From Thioclava sp. GXIMD4216 (GTDB lineage: Bacteria; Pseudomonadota; Alphaproteobacteria; Rhodobacterales; Rhodobacteraceae): 64,000 nucleotides of DNA. Shown in pieces: positions 32,253 through 41,805 of this stretch. Each line of letters opens with the position of its first letter. Positions within the stretch are counted from its first letter, which is position 1. Where the stretch lies: assembly GCF_037949285.1 (NCBI RefSeq), contig NZ_CP149926.1, positions 434,001 to 498,000 on the forward strand, read 5' to 3'. Position numbers and translations under genes: made by a program. The notes beneath the pieces are model-generated. The model searched no databases. It saw only the letters and a list, made by a program, of their open reading frames with translations, and was not told the DNA's origin.

Positions 32253-33422
32253 ATGACGACTGCTATTGAAGATTGGCGCGCCGGAGGGTTCGGACTTTAC
32301 ATCCATTGGCCATTCTGCGCCGCAAAATGTCCCTATTGCGATTTCAATTCCCATGTCACGGCCTCTATCGACCAGAAAGTCTGGGCCGAGGCCTATCTAT
32401 CGGAAATCGACCGTCTCGCAGGTGAAACCGGGGGCCGTGTGCTGAACACGGTGTTTTTCGGTGGCGGCACGCCGTCGCTGATGGATCCGGATGTGGTTGA
32501 CGCCATTCTGACCCGCGTGCGCAAAAGCTGGCGCATGTCGAATGATCTCGAGATCACGCTGGAGGCGAACCCCACGAGCATCGAAGCGGGTCGCTTCAGA
32601 GCCTATTCCGAAGCGGGCGTTAACCGTGTGTCGATGGGCATGCAGGCCATGAACGATGCCGATCTGCGTAAACTGGGGCGGATGCATTCGGTTGCGGAAG
32701 GCCGCAAAGCCTTTGATATCGCGCGTTCCGTCTTTGATCGCGTGAGCTTCGATCTGATCTATGCACGACAAGACCAGACCCTGTCCGACTGGCGCAAAGA
32801 GCTCTCGGAGGCGCTGTCGATGGCGATTGACCACCTTTCGCTTTATCAACTGACAGTTGAGGAAGGCACTGTTTTCGGTGCACGGGCAGAGCGTGGACTT
32901 CTGAAGGGATTGCCCGATGATGACAGTGCTGCGGATATGTATCTGCTGACACAAGATATAGCGGAATCGGCCGGTTTTCCGGCCTATGAAGTGTCTAACC
33001 ATGCGAAAGAAGGCTCTGAAAGCCGGCATAACCTGATTTACTGGCGCTATGGTGACTATGCCGGTATCGGTCCAGGCGCACATGGTCGTTTGACCCATGA
33101 TGGGATCCGCCATGCGACGGACACCCTCAAACAACCCGGTGCATGGATAGATCAGGTCCGCAAAACGGGGTCTGGCGAGCTTTCCCGCGAGGCTCTGCCG
33201 CGCAGTGAGGAAGTGATTGAATTCCTGCTGTTCGGCATGCGGCTTCAGGAGGGTCTGGATGTGACACGCTACGAAGCACTAAGCGGCGCGCAACTGCCAC
33301 AGGATCGCATCGCCTATCTTGTCGATATCGGCATGTTAGAGACGGATCAAACGAAAATCCGCGCCACCCGTGAAGGTCGCGCGGTTCTCAATGCGGTTAT
33401 CCGTGAACTGATGCCGGATTAA
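32253..33422 (+). CDS. hemW: Radical-SAM haem chaperone HemW
   Basis: Predicted 389 residues. The radical SAM cluster motif is CAAKCPYCDF (CxxxCxxC with the following Cys of the HemW type), near residue 24; GGGTPSLM and the C-terminal HemN_C domain (EVIEFLLFGMRLQEGLD) follow. HemW proteins bind haem and deliver it rather than oxidising coproporphyrinogen, although they were long annotated as oxygen-independent oxidases. The ATG has GGAG about 9 bases upstream. The stop codon overlaps that of convergent parB by 2-4 bases. Confidence 0.93.
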   Translation: MTTAIEDWRAGGFGLYIHWPFCAAKCPYCDFNSHVTASIDQKVWAEAYLSEIDRLAGETGGRVLNTVFFGGGTPSLMDPDVVDAILTRVRKSWRMSNDLEITLEANPTSIEAGRFRAYSEAGVNRVSMGMQAMNDADLRKLGRMHSVAEGRKAFDIARSVFDRVSFDLIYARQDQTLSDWRKELSEALSMAIDHLSLYQLTVEEGTVFGARAERGLLKGLPDDDSAADMYLLTQDIAESAGFPAYEVSNHAKEGSESRHNLIYWRYGDYAGIGPGAHGRLTHDGIRHATDTLKQPGAWIDQVRKTGSGELSREALPRSEEVIEFLLFGMRLQEGLDVTRYEALSGAQLPQDRIAYLVDIGMLETDQTKIRATREGRAVLNAVIRELMPD

Positions 33423-34300
33423 AGTTTTGTCAGCATCTGACAGATTGCATCAAGCTGCTCGAGATCTTTATAGCTGAGAACAACCGTCCCGCCCTCTTCG
33501 CCTCTATGATTGATCTCGACCTTCATGCCGATTGTCGCGGAAAGATCGGCTTCCAGCGCACGAGTATCCGCATCCTTTTCAATCACAGGGCGGTTTTTCG
33601 GCTTTTTCTCGGCTGTCGGAGACTTGGCCTTACGCTCGACTTCGCGAACCGAAAGACCTTTTGACACCGCTTCTTTCGCCAAACCGATCGGATCGTCGGC
33701 GGTAATCATTGCGCGCGCATGACCGGCGGTCAGACGCCCGTCGCGCAAATATTCCTGAACTTCGTCGGGCAGATTGAGAAGGCGCAAAAGATTCGCAATA
33801 TGGCTGCGGCTTTTCGAAAGAGCCTCGGCCACCTTTTCCTGCGTATGACCGAAACGATCCATCAACTGGCGATAGCTCAGCGCCTCTTCCAGAGGATTGA
33901 GGTCTGCACGCTGAATGTTCTCGATAATGGCGACTTCAAGAACTTCGGTGTCGTTGAAATCCCGAATAATGACCGGAAGCTCGTGCAACTGCGCCAGTTG
34001 CGACGCCCGCCAGCGGCGTTCCCCCGCAACGATCTCGTACATATCGCTTTTAGAAGGATGCACCCTGACGATGAGCGGCTGAATGACACCCTTCTCACGA
34101 ATAGAATCCGCCAGCTCCTGAAGCGCCTGCTCGTCGAAATGACGGCGCGGCTGTTCGGGATTGGGTTCGATCTTCTCGATCGGGATGAAACTTTCGGGAC
34201 GACGCGGCACCGTATTATCCTGGTTCGGTTCAATATTTACATCAGCCATCAGGGCACTCAATCCGCGCCCCAACCCCCGGCGTTCAGGCTTCTTGCTCAT
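33419..34300 (-). CDS. parB: Chromosome-partitioning protein ParB
   Basis: Predicted 293 residues. The N-terminal GLGRGLSALMAD leads into the CTPase domain with IEPNPEQPRRHFD and GERRWRASQLA, then the helix-turn-helix that reads parS (TQEKVAEALSKSRSHIANLLRLL) and a C-terminal dimer domain. ParB loads on parS palindromes and spreads as a CTP-dependent clamp, moving sister origins with ParA. The start overlaps the parA end by 17 bases. Two perfect parS sites lie in the two genes just upstream. Confidence 0.97.
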   Translation of the reverse strand: MSKKPERRGLGRGLSALMADVNIEPNQDNTVPRRPESFIPIEKIEPNPEQPRRHFDEQALQELADSIREKGVIQPLIVRVHPSKSDMYEIVAGERRWRASQLAQLHELPVIIRDFNDTEVLEVAIIENIQRADLNPLEEALSYRQLMDRFGHTQEKVAEALSKSRSHIANLLRLLNLPDEVQEYLRDGRLTAGHARAMITADDPIGLAKEAVSKGLSVREVERKAKSPTAEKKPKNRPVIEKDADTRALEADLSATIGMKVEINHRGEEGGTVVLSYKDLEQLDAICQMLTKL

Positions 34301-35117
34301 GTGCCCCCCTGCGATTTGCGCCTTCGTGGCGCTCCAATAATTCTTTTGCAAGAGCACGATAGGCTTTCGCCCCGCGTGACCCGCTATCATAATGCAAAAC
34401 GGATTGCGCATAAGACGGCGCTTCAGAGATCCGGACATTGCGCGGAATCATCGTTTTGAAGACGATTTCGCCCAAAGTCGCCCGTGCATCGGCTTCGACC
34501 AGCTGCGAGAGGTTGTTACGGACATCATACATGGTGAGAACGACCCCCTCGATGCGCAAATTCGGGTTCGCGCCCTGCCGCACCTCTCGAACACTCAGCA
34601 TCAGCTGCGATAGACCCTCAAGTGCGAAAAATTCGGCCTGAAGCGGCACAAGCACGGAATCTGCTGCCACCATCGCATTAACCGTCAGAAGACTTAAGGA
34701 CGGCGGGCAATCAATCAGGATATAATCCAGTTCAAGATCATTGATGTCTTCGGAACGTAGCGCCTTCTGAAGCAGGAAGCTGCGCTGATCGGCATCATGG
34801 AGTTCCATATCGGCAGAGGCCAGATCAGTTGTTGCAGGACTGAGCCACAGGCCGTCCCATTGCGTTTTGACAACAATATCACCAACGTCTGCCTCCCCCG
34901 TCAGCAGATCATAGGTGCTGTAATCACGATCTTCGAGTTCCAACCCAAGCCCGGTCGATGCGTTTCCCTGCGGATCAAGATCAACCACAAGAACACGGCA
35001 GCCCTGCTCGATCAGTGCGCTGGCAAGGTTGATCGCCGTAGTGGTTTTTCCTACGCCACCCTTCTGGTTGGTCACCGCAATAATACGCGGCGCCTTTATC
35101 AAGGAACGGTCAGACAC
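34284..35117 (-). CDS. parA: Chromosome-partitioning ATPase ParA
   Basis: Predicted 277 residues starting at GTG with AGGAG 6 bases upstream. The deviant Walker A is NQKGGVGKTTTAINLA (residues 17-32), Walker A' is VLVVDLDPQGNASTG and Walker B is YILIDCPPSLSLLT. ATP-bound ParA dimers coat the nucleoid and pull ParB-parS complexes. It lies between rsmG (8-base overlap) and parB, the conserved origin-proximal arrangement. Confidence 0.97.
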   Translation of the reverse strand: MSDRSLIKAPRIIAVTNQKGGVGKTTTAINLASALIEQGCRVLVVDLDPQGNASTGLGLELEDRDYSTYDLLTGEADVGDIVVKTQWDGLWLSPATTDLASADMELHDADQRSFLLQKALRSEDINDLELDYILIDCPPSLSLLTVNAMVAADSVLVPLQAEFFALEGLSQLMLSVREVRQGANPNLRIEGVVLTMYDVRNNLSQLVEADARATLGEIVFKTMIPRNVRISEAPSYAQSVLHYDSGSRGAKAYRALAKELLERHEGANRRGAHEQEA

Positions 35118-35718
35118 GCTCTGCTCCTGAGATTTTTAGTATTGTTGCATCTGGATCTGTGTTGCTTCTAAAAGCTTCATATTTGAAGGTCCATGACTTT
35201 TGCGCCTCGAGCACTTCACTTTTCCAATTCACCCCTTTCGGGAAAAGGAAAATAGCATTTTCACGCTGGTGGTAGGTTGAGAAGTCAAGAAGCATGTCAA
35301 GGGCAGCCAAGGCCCGCGCTGAAATAACATCGGCTTGTAACGAAGGGATATCCAGAATTCTCTGGCTGTGAACCTGCGCCGAAATAGACAACTCGCGAAT
35401 GCAAGTCATCAGAAATGCGCATTTGCGCTGATCGCTCTCAACAAGATGCACCTGAGCTGCCGGATTATGTTGGGCCGCCAAAATTGCCACAACTATCCCC
35501 GGTAGACCGCCGCCAGATCCCAAATCGACCCAGCGCTTCCATGATAGCGTCGGGTCATAAATTTGAATAGAATCTGCCAGATGCCGTTTCTGAAACTGCG
35601 ATATCGTCGATTTCGCCACAAGATTGATCGCAGGATTCCACTTTTTGACCAGCGCTTCATAAATTTCGAAACGCTCGATTGTTTCACGTGAAACATCAAT
35701 GAGGAAATTAGGCTCCAT
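35110..35718 (-). CDS. rsmG: 16S rRNA (guanine-N7)-methyltransferase RsmG (GidB)
   Basis: Predicted 202 residues. The SAM-binding motif is VDLGSGGGLPGIVVAIL and the acidic strand is VHLVESDQRKCAFL; the second part has ISARALAALDMLL as usual. RsmG makes m7G at G527 of 16S rRNA. The N-terminal codons for DVSRETI spell out a perfect parS site (35680-35695), a coding and binding overlap that is widespread in this gene. Confidence 0.96.
   Translation of the reverse strand: MEPNFLIDVSRETIERFEIYEALVKKWNPAINLVAKSTISQFQKRHLADSIQIYDPTLSWKRWVDLGSGGGLPGIVVAILAAQHNPAAQVHLVESDQRKCAFLMTCIRELSISAQVHSQRILDIPSLQADVISARALAALDMLLDFSTYHQRENAIFLFPKGVNWKSEVLEAQKSWTFKYEAFRSNTDPDATILKISGAERV
35680..35695. promoter_or_regulatory. 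Perfect parS site in the rsmG start region
   Basis: TGTTTCACGTGAAACA is an exact match to the consensus 16-bp parS palindrome. It lies 0.6-1.4 kb from the parA start and 2.3 kb from parB, on the side towards the origin. Confidence 0.92.
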
Positions 35719-35727
35719 AGCTGCGCC

Positions 35728-37599
35728 TCACGCTGACTTCTGTTTCCGCGACTGGCGCAGTTTCGCCAGAATCAACGCCAACGCAGCTGGTGTCACACCA
35801 TCGACACGCCCCGCCTGTCCAAGAGTGCTAGGTTGTGCCTTGCCGAGTTTGAGCCGGAGTTCGTTCGAAAGACCAGACAGACCCGAATAGTCAAAATCCT
35901 CAGGAATTTTCCAAGCTTCATCGCGCTGCATTGCTGCAATATCTCGCTCCTGACGGATAAGATAATTTGCGTAAAGCGCGTCTTTCGCTAACTGATCGGA
36001 AATTTCGGGACCGATATCCTGAAGTTCAGGGAATACCCGCGCCATATCGTCAAAAGTTATGTCAGGGAAAGACAGGAAGGAAAATGCAGACCGACGCTGT
36101 CCATCTTGATTAACCTTGAACCCATGAGAGATCGCCTCTTTCGGCGTCAGAACACAGGCTTCCATAAGCGCGCGCCCTGCGTCCATCGCTTCTTGTTTTG
36201 CCAGATATGCGGCGGTCCGAACATCGGATACGCAGCCGATTTCCAATGCGAGTGGGGTCAAACGTTGATCGGCGTTATCTGCCCGAAGGGAAAGCCGGAA
36301 CTCCGCTCGCGATGTAAACATGCGGTAAGGTTCCGTTACTCCGCGGGTGATAAGATCATCAACCATCACACCGATATAGCTCTGCGTGCGCGAAAACTGG
36401 ACCTGCTCCCGCCCTAGCGCAGCAGCCGCGGCATTCAGACCGGCAACCAGGCCTTGCGCAGCAGCTTCTTCGTATCCAGTGGTGCCATTAATTTGCCCCG
36501 CCAGATACAATCCGGGTTGCGCGCGCATTTCCAAAGAGGAATTTAAGCTGCGCGGATCGACGTAATCATATTCGATCGCATATCCGGGTTGGAGAATTTC
36601 AACATTCTCAAGCCCTCGCATCGAACGCACATATTCATGTTGAACGTCTTCGGGAAGAGACGTCGAAATACCGTTAGGATATACGGTATCATCATCAAGT
36701 CCCTCTGGCTCCAGAAAGACCTGATGCGATGTCTTATCCGCAAATCGAACAATCTTATCTTCGATTGAAGGGCAATACCGCGGCCCTATCCCTTCAATAT
36801 GTCCCCCATACATTGCTGAACGGGACAGATTTTCGCGAATAATCTGATGCGTCACTTCGTTGGTATGCGTGATCCCGCAAGAGATCTGCCGCACCAGCGG
36901 CTTCTTATTCAGAAAACTGAACATGGCCGGATCATCATCACCGGGCTGACTTTCAAGAATTGACCAATCAATGGTCTTACCGTTCAACCTTGGTGGCGTG
37001 CCTGTTTTAAGGCGCCCCAGAGGGAGATCCAAGGCTTTCAGCCTATCGGCAAGCGGAACGGACGGGCGATCTCCCATGCGTCCACCAGGATAGCTTTTAT
37101 CACCGATGTGGATAACACCGTGCAAAAACGTGCCAGTCGTCAAGACGACCGACTGACATTCTATTTCTGCGCCATCTGCAAGCATCACACCGGCAATGCG
37201 ACCATTTTTAATCACAAGATCAACGGCTTCGCCTTCAACGACCTCAAGATTGGCCTGTTGAGCTGTAAGATCAGCCATCGCCTGACGATAAAGCTTTCGG
37301 TCCGCTTGGGCTCTTGGTCCCTGAACCGCGGGCCCTTTGCGCCGGTTAAGAAGACGGAACTGGATCCCTGCCCTATCGGCTGCAACACCCATAACACCGT
37401 CCATCGCGTCAATCTCGCGAACAAGGTGCCCCTTACCAAGCCCCCCTATCGCCGGATTGCACGACATAACGCCTATCGCCTCACGGCGAAGTGTGACCAA
37501 CGCAGTCTTTGCGCCCATGCGAGCGGCTGCATGGGCTGCTTCGGTTCCGGCATGTCCGCCGCCGACAACAATAACGTCAAAATGTTTCACGTGAAACAC
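35728..37599 (-). CDS. mnmG: tRNA uridine-5-carboxymethylaminomethyl modification enzyme MnmG (GidA)
   Basis: Predicted 623 residues. The FAD-binding motif is [20 protein letters not shown], followed by [20 protein letters not shown], the second FAD signature [18 protein letters not shown], and the C-terminal helical domain that binds MnmE. With MnmE it modifies U34 of several tRNAs. The start is uncertain: GTG at 37599 and GTG at 37590 both lie in or beside a perfect parS site, and AGGAG is better spaced for the second. It begins 2 bases after the mnmE stop. Confidence 0.95.
37583..37598. promoter_or_regulatory. Perfect parS site at the mnmG start
   Basis: TGTTTCACGTGAAACA matches consensus parS exactly and spans the first codons of mnmG. 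With the rsmG copy it forms a pair 1.9 kb apart, both within 5.3 kb of the putative origin. Confidence 0.92.
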
Positions 37600-37601
37600 T
37601 C

Positions 37602-38888
37602 CTATTTCCCGATGCAAAAACTCAAGAATATCTCATCCAAGAGATTCTCGACATCCACCCTGCCCAACAGAGATTCCAAAGACCGAGCGGCCTCCCGCAG
37701 ATAAACCGCAGAAAGTTCAGGACGGTCGAAACTGCTCATTACCTCATTTCGCGCCGAATCCAAAGCCCGGTTTGCATTAATGAGTGCATCACGATGTCGT
37801 TCCCGCGTCATGATCCCTGCCCCCTCGGCTTGAGCAAGAAGACGCTGCGTAATCTCGGCAACAAGCTGGTCTATTCCCGCGCCGGTTTTTCCTGACACGC
37901 GAAGCCCTTCCCCGCTTACAATATCGGCTTTTCCATAAGCGATCAGATCTCCCGCATGTGGCTCTAGGAGAGGTAACTCTTCCCCATCCAGCAAGAAAAC
38001 CCGCAGATCGGCGTCTTTGGCTCGACTGATCGCGCGATCTACTCCAATCGCTTCGACAATATCTGTGGTCTCCCGCAATCCGGCGGTATCCAGTAATGTA
38101 ACCGCCAATCCCGCCAGATCCATGCGAACTTCGATCACATCCCTTGTCGTGCCGGCAATCTCGGAAGTAATTGCGGCCTCTCTTCCCGCTAACGCATTGA
38201 GAAGTGTTGATTTTCCAGCATTAGGACGGCCAACAATCGCCACCTCGAAACCATCGCGAATACGCTCGGCTGCGCCAAAACGCCGGATTTCCTCGCTCAA
38301 ACTGCTTTGAACGGCATCAATTTCCGCAAGAACTTCAGGCGTCACATCGACCGGTACATCTTCATCGGCAAAGTCGATGGTCACTTCCAACAGCGCTGCA
38401 GCTCTGACCAACCGCTCTCGCCAGCCGTCCACGACCTTCCCGACAGAGCCAGACAGAACTTTAAGAGCCTGTTTTCTTTGGGATTCTGTTTCCGCCTCGA
38501 TGAGATCAGCCAGACCTTCGACCTGAGAAAGATCCAAGCGCTCATTCTCCATCGCGCGGCGGGTGAATTCGCCCGCTTCCGCCATTCGGAGGTCGGGATT
38601 CGTGCCCAAGGCCCGCAAAACCGCACTCACTGTCGCCACGGCTCCGTGGATATGGAATTCTACGACCTCTTCGCCGGTAAAACTATGCCCCTTGGCAAAG
38701 GGCAGCACCACTGCCTCGTCCAGCGCCTCACCCTCTAGCCGCAACACACGCAGCGCGGTCTGTCGCGCAGGCGGCAATGTCCCGCAAAGACGCGAGGCAG
38801 CTTCCCAGGCTTTCGGCCCGGAAATACGAATAACGGCCACCCCCGCTTTTCCGCGGGCAGTGGCCAGTGCAAAGATCGTATCCATCAT
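37602..38888 (-). CDS. mnmE: tRNA modification GTPase MnmE (TrmE)
   Basis: Predicted 428 residues: N-terminal folate-binding domain ([20 protein letters not shown]), helical domain, an inserted G domain with P-loop [12 protein letters not shown], switch [10 protein letters not shown], and the C-terminal FCIGK tail whose Cys is conserved. The G4 motif reads YGKAD rather than the usual NKxD, which is worth noting. MnmE works as a K+-dependent dimer with MnmG. It is 18 bases after the rho stop, so rho through parB may form one long transcription unit. Confidence 0.95.
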
Positions 38889-38906
38889 ATCCCTCTCGGG
38901 AACGGA

Positions 38907-40199
38907 TTAACCGTTCATGGAGTCGAAGAATTCCGAATTCGTTTTGGTCTGTTTGAGCTTCGAGATCAGGAACTCGATCGCATCGGTCGTGCCCATCGGG
39001 TTGAGGATGCGGCGCAACAGATAGGTCTTCTGCAGATCCTTCTGTTCAACCAGCAGATCCTCTTTCCGCGTACCGGATTTAAGGATATCCATCGCCGGGA
39101 AGACGCGCTTGTCGGCCACCTTGCGGTCCAGCACGATCTCCGAGTTCCCCGTCCCTTTGAATTCCTCAAAGATGACCTCATCCATGCGCGAACCGGTATC
39201 GATCAGCGCGGTCGCGATGATTGTCAGCGACCCGCCCTCTTCGATGTTCCGTGCCGCCCCGAAGAAGCGTTTAGGGCGTTGAAGCGCGTTGGCATCCACA
39301 CCACCGGTCAGAACCTTGCCCGAGCTCGGCACCACGGTGTTGAACGCGCGCCCCAGACGGGTGATCGAGTCGAGCAGGATCACCACATCGCGCTTGTGTT
39401 CAACCAGACGCTTGGCTTTTTCCATCACCATCTCGGACACGGCCACGTGGCGCGTTGCCGGTTCGTCGAAGGTCGAGGAAACAACCTCCCCCTTCACCGA
39501 ACGCTGCATATCGGTCACCTCTTCCGGACGTTCGTCGATCAGAAGCACGATCAGATAGCACTCGGGGTGATTTTTCTCGATCGAGGTGGCGATATTCTGC
39601 AGCAGAACCGTTTTACCGGTCCGCGGCGGTGCCACGATCAGCGACCGCTGCCCCTTCCCGATCGGAGCAACCAGATCGATGATCCGTGCCGAGCGATCCT
39701 TGATCGTCGGGTCCTCGATCTCCATTTTCAGGCGCTCGTCGGGATAAAGCGGCGTCAGGTTATCAAAAGCAACCTTGTGACGCGCCTTTTCGGGCTCTTC
39801 AAAGTTAATTTTCTCGACTTTGGTCAGCACGAAATAGCGTTCGTTTTCGCCCGGAGAGCGGATGATGCCCTCGACGGTGTCGCCAGTGCGCAACGCATGC
39901 TGGCGGATCATGTCGGGCGAGACATAGATATCGTCCGGACCCGGCAGATAGTTGGCCTCGGTCGAGCGCAGGAAGCCGAAACCGTCCTGCAACACTTCCA
40001 GAACCCCGTCCCCGCCAATGGTGATGTCTTCTTCGGCATGCGCTTTCAGCAGTGCGAACATCATTTCGCCCTTGCGCATGGTCGAGGCGTTCTCGATTTC
40101 CCACTCTTCGGCCATAGCCAGCAATGCCTTGGGGCTTTTCGCCTTCAGGTCAGCCAGATTCAGACGCTCGTCTTCGGGATGCGGACGCTCTTCGGTCAT
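38907..40199 (-). CDS. rho: Transcription termination factor Rho
   Basis: Predicted 430 residues. The N-terminal Rho domain ([19 protein letters not shown]) and the RNA-binding OSB fold ([20 protein letters not shown]) precede the ATPase with P-loop APPRTGKT, Walker [15 protein letters not shown] and the R-loop GKGQRSLIV region. The hexamer translocates on RNA and releases RNA polymerase. Its position beside hemJ and the origin is conserved in many alphaproteobacteria. Confidence 0.97.
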
Positions 40200-40321: not shown

Positions 40322-40798
40322 CTAGAATTTCACGATCACGGCGATGACAATCAGAACCATGAAAAGCGTGGGGAGCTCGTTCATCATCCGGTAGGTTTTG
40401 CCGCTACGGGTATTGCGGCCATTCACAAAATCTTTCCGGCGCAATCCAAGCCAGTGATGAAACCACGTCATCCCGATCACCGAAGCCGCTTTGACCCACG
40501 ACCACGCCATCGTCCAGTCAACAACGCCAGGGATCAGAACCAGACACAGACCGAAGCTCCATGCCGAGATCATCGCAGGGTTCATGATCGCTTTCAAAAG
40601 CAGACGCTCCTGATGCTGGAACAGAAGATCCATTTCCGAACCCGCTGTGACACCCTGCTTCTTGAGCCCTTCCACGTGATACACGAAGAGCCGTGGCAAA
40701 TAGAACAGCCCTGCCATCCACGCCAGCACCGACATCACGTGGAAGGCTTTGATCCACGGATAATAGATCGCGAGAAAATCTTGCACGGCTGTCAGCAT
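40322..40798 (-). CDS. hemJ: Protoporphyrinogen IX oxidase HemJ
   Basis: Predicted 158-residue membrane protein with four helices (UPF0093 family). The helix IKAFHVMSVLAWMAGLFYLP contains the conserved His that binds haem b, and LPRLFVYH and the K in LLLKAIMNPAM are also family marks. HemJ oxidises protoporphyrinogen IX in the penultimate haem step of bacteria that lack HemG and HemY oxidases. I start at MLTAVQ, which has GGAG 9 bases upstream. It runs leftward, away from the origin region. Confidence 0.92.
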   Translation of the reverse strand: MLTAVQDFLAIYYPWIKAFHVMSVLAWMAGLFYLPRLFVYHVEGLKKQGVTAGSEMDLLFQHQERLLLKAIMNPAMISAWSFGLCLVLIPGVVDWTMAWSWVKAASVIGMTWFHHWLGLRRKDFVNGRNTRSGKTYRMMNELPTLFMVLIVIAVIVKF

Positions 40799-40830
40799 GG
40801 CTTGGTCTCCGGTGTTAGGCGCCAATCTCT

Positions 40831-40880
40831 CTCTAAAAATAAAAATATAATTAAGAAAGAATAGAAGATGATTATAGGCC
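40831..40880. promoter_or_regulatory. AT-rich candidate DNA-unwinding element
   Basis: Contains TCTAAAAATAAAAATATAAT followed by further A/T-rich sequence, in marked contrast to the GC-rich surroundings. It flanks the first DnaA boxes, as expected of an origin unwinding element. Confidence 0.65.
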
Positions 40881-40915
40881 CTGTGGATACTGTGGATTCA
40901 CCGTTATTCCCTGAT

Positions 40916-40932
40916 TTATCCACAGTGGATAA
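40916..40932. promoter_or_regulatory. Overlapping inverted DnaA boxes
   Basis: TTATCCACAGTGGATAA is a 17-base near-perfect palindrome: a consensus DnaA box (40916-40924) shares its last base with an inverted one-mismatch box (40924-40932). Confidence 0.85.
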
Positions 40933-41025
40933 ACTATTTGCCCACAGAGTCGATAACCTGCACGATTTAACAAGAAAAAATCATGTTTTCAAATGTTTGC
41001 AAAGTTTGCAAAGTCCGATTCGGCT

Positions 41026-41034
41026 TGTGGATAA
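41026..41034 (-). promoter_or_regulatory. DnaA box (perfect)
   Basis: TGTGGATAA on the plus strand, equal to TTATCCACA on the minus strand, inside the candidate origin and just after a GATTC methylation site. Confidence 0.85.
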
Positions 41035-41197
41035 ACTGGTGGGAAAAGTTAACCTATATGAGTCGCTCACAGACTGAGGAAGACTCTTCTCACAGGTGGA
41101 AAAATATCTTCGAAGCTGCGTGAAACCTGCCGATAACTGTGGAGGAAATCGCCTGTCGGGGTTATCCCCTGTTTTATACATACGGTTACCGAGAGGC

Positions 41198-41206
41198 TTA
41201 TCCACA
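41198..41206 (+). promoter_or_regulatory. DnaA box (perfect) overlapping the maf start
   Basis: TTATCCACA whose last base is the A of the maf ATG. DnaA bound here could affect maf expression as well as origin assembly. Confidence 0.8.
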
Positions 41207-41805
41207 TGACTATCCCCATCCTGCTGGCGTCCCAGTCCGAAATTCGGGCCCAATTGCTGCGCAATGCGGGGCTGGAAATCGTGGCAAAACCCGCCCGTAT
41301 CGATGAAGAGATGATCCGTGCCTCGATGCAGGCAGAAGGTGCATCGCCGCGTGATGTCGCTGATTTTCTGGCCGAGATGAAAGCCAAGAAGCTCTCGCGC
41401 AGCGTCGCTGGCGTCATGGTTCTGGGGGCGGATCAGGTGCTTGATCTGGAGGGGCGGATCTTTTCCAAGCCGGACACCCAGGAAGCGGCGATTGAACAGT
41501 TACGCGCTCTTTCGGGCAAGACGCATAAGCTTTTGTCGGCGGCTGTGATCATACGTGATAATGAACCGCTCTGGCGGCATGTCGGCGTTGTGCGCCTGAC
41601 GATGCATGATCTCTCGGAAGGGTTTATCGAGGATTATGTCACGCGTAACTGGGAGTCTATCCGGCAGGCTGTCGGATGCTACAAGCTTGAAGAAGAGGGT
41701 GTGCGCTTGTTTTCCAAGGTGGAAGGCGATTATTTCCACGTATTGGGACTGCCGTTAATGGAGTTTCTGAACTGGTTGCGTGCGCGTGGGGAGCTGACAA
41801 CATGA
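41206..41805 (+). CDS. maf: Maf-family nucleotide pyrophosphatase
   Basis: Predicted 199 residues. The N-terminal [18 protein letters not shown], the [16 protein letters not shown] strand-loop and the [31 protein letters not shown] region are the standard Maf pattern. Maf proteins hydrolyse non-canonical or modified NTPs; exact substrate preference is not readable. It is the first gene on the right side of the origin and overlaps aroE by 4 bases. No clear Shine-Dalgarno is seen because the upstream DNA is a DnaA box. Confidence 0.93.

Follow-up and report, generated by a model that had tools for sequence, protein, structure and literature searches.

The 407-bp gap between hemJ and maf (40799–41205 of the window, the whole 64-kb stretch of DNA analysed here) was identified as the predicted origin (oriC) of the 2.74-Mb chromosome (contig C1), a reading to which we assign a probability of about 96%. 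It is strongly supported by a GC-skew minimum at 40738, nearby parS sites, unstable DNA within the gap and the conservation of the gap and its DnaA boxes in relatives. The gap is almost certainly where copying of the chromosome begins in this member of the Rhodobacteraceae (probably of the genus Thioclava); it follows the ordinary bacterial plan and is common to relatives. Sequence elements, skew, strand polarity, synteny and conservation were all computed in this analysis, and from them we infer that DnaA binds the gap, that replication starts there, and where and on which strand the duplex opens. The results narrow the origin to 407 bp of the chromosome. They also allow an accident of lineage to be told apart from what the family keeps: boxes of fixed strand, one beside maf and one at about −190, and, in the A-rich part, the (GAT)n-GTAGG element, which is strand-specific. 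The gap has a GC content of 42%, compared with 59% for the window, and it is flanked as follows.

33419–40199, minus strand (all genes): parB, parA, rsmG (gidB), mnmG (gidA), mnmE (trmE) and rho
35680–35695, no strand assigned: parS-type site TGTTTCACGTGAAACA, at the 5′ end of the rsmG reading frame
37583–37598, no strand assigned: parS-type site TGTTTCACGTGAAACA, at the 5′ end of the mnmG reading frame
40322–40798, minus strand: hemJ (protoporphyrinogen oxidase; UPF0093), from profile matches
40799–41205, no strand assigned: hemJ–maf intergenic gap, predicted chromosomal origin (oriC), from the box cluster, skew minimum, unwinding region and conservation
41206–41805, plus strand: maf nucleotide pyrophosphatase, followed by aroE, coaE and dnaQ

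GC skew and strand polarity around the gap

The cumulative GC skew, which the original prediction had named as a check, reaches its in-window minimum at 40738, 61 bp from the gap. Among the blocks sampled (818 kb), all five between base 1 and 475 kb have negative skew, all ten between 475 kb and 1.66 Mb have positive skew, and all seven from 1.78 Mb onward are negative again. The cumulative maximum lies at approximately 1.77 Mb; on a circular contig the two arms would measure about 1.30 and 1.45 Mb. The signal is weak: the value at 40738 is only 66 counts below that 25 kb rightward, and several 10-kb blocks run against the trend, both on the left (360, 390 and 400 kb, positive) and on the right (480, 490, 580 and 670 kb, negative). 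Since the dif pattern had no match in the genome, the terminus was placed by skew only. The GGGNAGGG motifs, which we take to be FtsK-orienting sequences, switch polarity at the gap, with one on the plus and eight on the minus strand of the window to its left and six on the plus and one on the minus strand to its right.

Leading-strand genes had been described as running away from the gap on both sides. This holds for the nearest named genes, with parB to hemJ on the minus strand and maf, aroE, coaE and dnaQ on the plus strand, but it did not extend to the whole window by crude ORF picking, which returned 19 minus and 15 plus ORFs on the left and 11 plus and 12 minus ORFs on the right; this picking is unreliable and omitted mnmG in favour of antisense ORFs. 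The hemJ match scored 129.4 bits, under the NCBIfam cut-off of 138.05, and exceeded the Pfam cut-off. Exact GTTTCACGTGAAAC cores occur only twice in the genome, at 35681 and 37584 of the window, 3–5 kb from the gap, and cores with one mismatch occur at six more sites elsewhere; the identity of these cores and of the surrounding TGTTTCACGTGAAACA sites as parS is presumed from the motif. The dnaA gene lies 207 kb from the gap.

DnaA boxes and unstable DNA within the gap

The following elements were located within the gap by box scanning, stability calculation, alignment and comparison with relatives.

40827–40876, no strand assigned: predicted A+T-rich unwinding element (DUE), the least stable 50 bp of the 64-kb window, from nearest-neighbour stability
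40853–40881, plus strand: DnaA-trio-like stretch ahead of GGCCC, corresponding to the relatives' (GAT)n-GTAGG, from the published BUS rule
40882–40890, minus strand: DnaA box with one mismatch (GTATCCACA), adjoining the unwinding element, from the box scan and the trio-rule search
40891–40899, minus strand: weak tandem DnaA box with two mismatches (GAATCCACA), from the box scan and alignment
40916–40924, plus strand: exact DnaA box, from the box scan, alignment and relatives
40924–40932, minus strand: DnaA box with one mismatch, head to head with the 40916 box and having one base in common with it
40995–41012, plus strand: tandem GTTTGCAAAGTTTGCAAA, common only to the own genome and its nearest relative
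41026–41034, minus strand: exact DnaA box, conserved in strand and position in most relatives
41091–41103, no strand assigned: CACAGGTGGAAAA, two weak head-to-head DnaA-like cores, from the 17-row alignment
41138–41146, minus strand: weak DnaA-like box (TCCTCCACA, two mismatches), mostly conserved in the 17-row alignment
41162–41170, plus strand: weak DnaA-like box (TTATCCCCT, two mismatches), mostly conserved in the 17-row alignment
41198–41206, plus strand: exact DnaA box ending on the A of the maf start codon

All five boxes of the original prediction were found as claimed, namely exact copies of TTATCCACA at 40916 (plus), 41026 (minus) and 41198 (plus) and near-exact copies at 40882 and 40924, and the last exact box does have base 41206 in common with the maf ATG. 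Read from the unstable DNA, the gap proceeds from AAGAAAGAATAGAAGATGATTATAGGCCC on the plus strand to the tandem boxes TGTGGATAC and TGTGGATTC, followed by the overlapping 40916/40924 pair, the GTTTGCAAA tandem, the minus box at 41026, the weak cores and the plus box at 41198. The segment 40827–40876 abuts the first box and has a nearest-neighbour mean of −1.021, compared with a window mean of −1.533 (sd 0.094). Three marks by which an oriC is recognised are thus found here: a cluster of DnaA boxes (three exact and two near-exact) in a non-coding gap of 407 bp, a GC-skew minimum at the site (818 kb sampled of the 2.74-Mb contig; shallow to the right) and an A+T-rich, easily melted element adjoining the boxes.

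At least three exact boxes were obtained in 0 of 20,000 first-order Markov sequences (mean 0.004), and the whole 3.84-Mb genome holds 29 exact boxes. The chance expectation originally given for a 9-mer in 400 bp, about 0.003 per strand, had to be corrected to 0.0015 per strand, or 0.003 for both. At least three boxes with no more than one mismatch within 400 bp were found at two places in 818 kb of own sequence, the hemJ–maf gap with five boxes (three exact) and C1:2484197 with three boxes (two exact). The latter cluster, in the dnaG frame (L028:4197–4253, C1:2484197–2484253), has its two exact boxes 48 bp apart and a near-exact one within 400 bp; lying inside a reading frame, it was rejected as an origin.

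DnaA boxes occur outside origins too, this second cluster exists, and the skew is shallow right of the gap, all of which would fit a site at the gap (datA- or promoter-like) that titrates DnaA or is regulated by it, with the true origin elsewhere on C1. We consider such a site most improbable, since both the skew and the GGGNAGGG polarity switch at the gap, the parS sites and parAB lie near it, and the least stable DNA of the window adjoins its first box, whereas the second cluster sits in coding DNA in a skew-negative block between other negative blocks.

Conservation of the boxes among relatives

A maf match was obtained in 95 of the 101 genomes searched; 25 matching genomes were left out of the locus set, and 70 loci were examined, 57 from the same family (own genome included) and 13 from other families. 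A divergent hemJ–maf gap of 300–460 bp was present in 47 of the 57 same-family loci (the family gaps); eight of the other ten were without hemJ in the fetched stretch and two had a gap of more than 1 kb. One genome (G016) had no box within 900 bp of maf. A second set comprised the best 80 of 544 confirmed loci, 77 of which have a hemJ–maf gap. The two sets amount to 124 gaps (47 + 77, the window's own included), and removal of five that were identical between them left 119 distinct gaps. Seventeen gaps were aligned, comprising that of the own genome, 15 from its genus and that of G031, a member of its family.

Among the 77 gaps from the best 80 of 544 loci and the 47 family gaps, respectively, a plus-strand box at −32 to −5 of maf was found in 73 and 41, with no minus-strand box at that position in either set; a minus-strand box at −206 to −176 in 52 and 29 (plus strand, 1 each); a minus-strand box at −350 to −300 in 43 and 28 (opposite strand, 10 and 3); and a plus-strand box at −290 in 23 and 29 (minus strand, 19 and 16), the last showing no clear strand bias among the 77. 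Equal-length control segments in neighbouring genes contained no box in any of these 77 loci from the best 80 of 544. When the maf-start box was excluded, 27 of the 77 (best 80 of 544 loci) contained no or one box with at most one mismatch. Most relatives retain the boxes where synteny is retained, and the loss that had been proposed as the refuting outcome was not seen.

The arrangement had been suggested to be specific to this lineage. For the maf-proximal box this did not hold: a plus-strand box on the maf side in 73 of the 77 gaps (best 80 of 544 loci) indicates that it is family-wide and not lineage-specific. Direct contact of the box with the ATG is a minor variant: 13 of these 77 (best 80 of 544 loci) have exact TTATCCACATG where maf is estimated to start, and one more has it 12 bases further upstream. 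Lineage specificity was borne out for the GTTTGCAAA tandem, which is present as described with copies at 40995 and 41004 and was found in 2 of the 47 family gaps (that of the own genome, G000, and that of its nearest relative, G008) and in none of the 77 from the best 80 of 544 loci. Its 17-bp core is not repeated exactly elsewhere in the genome, where one further site matches it at two mismatches; the tandem sits between the two groups of boxes and is retained in G008, all of which might be expected of a recognition site required by this origin. Such a role is nevertheless improbable, because the tandem is missing from the other 45 family gaps and from all 77 (best 80 of 544 loci); the 17-row alignment, in which this spacer is poorly conserved, includes 15 of the 45. 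The GTTTGCAAA tandem is an accident of lineage.

The remaining elements are kept to differing depths. The TGTGGAT core of the 40891 box is invariant in the 17-row alignment, and the box at the 40916 position is weaker or missing in many relatives. The sequence CACAGGTGGA at 41091–41103 is near-invariant in the 17 aligned gaps and fades across the wider family; the palindrome TCCACAGGTGGA at up to two mismatches was found in 26 of the 47 family gaps and 39 of the 77 (best 80 of 544 loci), at more than one place. Being scattered and decayed in the wider family despite its near-invariance in the 17 rows, it was rejected as a family-wide core element. GANTC (CcrM-type) sites number five in the gap, compared with 61 in the 64-kb window. 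Eight of the 17 closest gaps have at least three, and G054 (L084) has 11 in its gap. A GANTC methylation cluster was not retained as an origin feature; 30 of the 47 family gaps have no or one site, the shuffled expectation being about 1.3. No CtrA site of the form TTAA-N7-TTAA and no strict IHF consensus was found in the gap, which has one TTAACC half-site at 41049, and control of this origin by CtrA or IHF was rejected for want of strict-consensus sites.

A triplet element in the A-rich part of the gap

The original prediction overlooked a triplet element in the A-rich part. Under the published BUS rule (at least three NAN triplets, no farther than 16 bp from a box that has two mismatches at most), the window has five NAN triplets (40853–40867) and a spacer of 14 before a box with one mismatch, a result reached by 2 of 100 shuffles; a second reading, made by eye, gives four triplets (40864–40875) and a spacer of 6. 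The rule is loose, as 43 of the 70 loci match it on the plus strand (not all at the same place) and 15 on the other. On the hemJ-proximal side of the 17 closest gaps, A-rich DNA is followed by GAT repeats, TAGG or a close variant, CC and a box, in that order. In order and strand this resembles the basal unwinding system of Bacillus subtilis, with AT-rich DNA, triplets, GGCC and a TGTGGAT box pair (PMC8287927 and PMC8235120, excerpted text), and it differs from that system in that the relatives' repeat is mostly 3′-TAG-5′ and that the join to GGCC and the box fades beyond the closest relatives.

Two or more tandem copies of GAT are present in the first 130 bp of 84 of the 119 distinct gaps and absent from 35, while the same 130 bp contains tandem ATC, the reverse complement, in one gap and tandem TAG in seven. 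GATGATG was found on the plus strand of 50 of the 77 gaps (best 80 of 544 loci) and 35 of the 47 family gaps (shuffle expectations 1.15 and 0.65, respectively) and on the other strand of none. A lenient search for the full join of triplets, GGCC and box returned all 17 closest gaps and 26 of the 119 overall, which indicates that beyond the close relatives the triplets are better kept than the GGCC/box link; a family-wide triplet–GGCC–box module was rejected on this count.

Read by eye in the middle-adenine register, the repeat is mostly 3′-TAG-5′ and not the trio consensus 3′-GAT-5′, and a single 3′-GAT-5′ (5′-TAG-3′) overlaps GGCC, one base out of register. Rhodobacteraceae origins might open on a DnaA-trio variant whose triplet order is opposite to the B. 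subtilis consensus, in the form of a repeated 3′-TAG-5′ offset by one base from the single 3′-GAT-5′ at GGCC. We regard this reading as doubtful. If it is true, the DnaA filaments of the family would recognise only the middle adenine in single-stranded DNA, or would have altered their preference. In Helicobacter pylori, opening was blocked when the polarity of the trio was reversed (PMC8235120, excerpted text), so the opposite order would, if true, be a real difference.

The (GAT)n-GTAGG stretch may alternatively serve hemJ, as part of the leader or promoter of this minus-strand gene, and not unwinding. Where found, it lies within the hemJ-proximal 130 bp, and the contrast between 84 of 119 gaps with tandem GAT and 26 of 119 with the full join (17 of 17 only among the closest) indicates that the triplets are not always tied to the GGCC-side box. 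The latter count led us to rate the trio variant lower and a role in hemJ expression higher. We still consider the hemJ role rather unlikely, given that in the closest gaps the GGCC and DnaA boxes come after the triplets, matching the published unwinding module, and that the triplet stretch is at the edge of the least stable DNA. Only this element might teach something new, as a clean substrate for how strictly DnaA reads the single-stranded trio motif; the rest is an ordinary oriC, with one modest, testable twist.

With the gap as oriC, DnaA would load on the exact boxes at 40916, 41026 and 41198 and then spread to the weaker boxes. Starting at the 40882/40891 pair, it would pass the GGCC spacer, extend along the plus strand of 40827–40881, which is A-rich and trio-like, and open this stretch; helicase loading there would give rise to two forks, the leftward one passing through rho, mnmE, mnmG and parAB and the rightward one through maf, aroE, coaE and dnaQ. 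The newly copied origins would then be segregated by ParB on the two parS sites.

Comparison with known origins

An Ori-Finder analysis pinpointed oriC in 101 Rhodobacteraceae, with nearness to parAB as one criterion, and left eight strains unresolved (PMC6699656, excerpted text); origins were predicted likewise in 179 genomes of five alphaproteobacterial orders (PMC8116508, excerpted text). The hemJ–maf gap is like the former in family, DnaA boxes, low GC content, GC-disparity minimum and nearness to parAB. The words hemJ and maf do not occur in the main text of PMC6699656, and its excerpted text describes no internal layout. Titles and abstract openings of the papers listed for DnaA-trios in Rhodobacter and Alphaproteobacteria and for the Thioclava oriC yielded no internal layout of this origin. 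Rhodobacteraceae may well be among the organisms covered by the broad trio survey (PMC8287927).

Origins of the Caulobacter/Rickettsia type lie between hemE and COG1806 (PMC1914354, excerpted text). The gap resembles Caulobacter crescentus Cori and the Rickettsia ori in being an intergenic AT-rich region with DnaA boxes, and differs in being bounded by hemJ and maf. In this genome hemE (PF01208) is located at C1:133089–134111, 341 kb from the origin, and COG1806 (PF03618) had no match, while the Caulobacter positive control was matched. hemE and gcrA stand side by side (C1:133089–135172).

Three loci from outside the family bear on this difference. COG1806 is directly upstream of maf in L121 and L122, and in L118, another alphaproteobacterium, hemE faces maf across a gap. 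Together with PMC1914354 (excerpted text), these loci suggest, as the simplest reading, an old order hemE–ori–COG1806–maf; the family would later have lost the two boundary genes and kept the blocks on either side in place. The gap of L118 contains four boxes in the strand order −, +, −, +, the same as that of the hemJ–maf gap.
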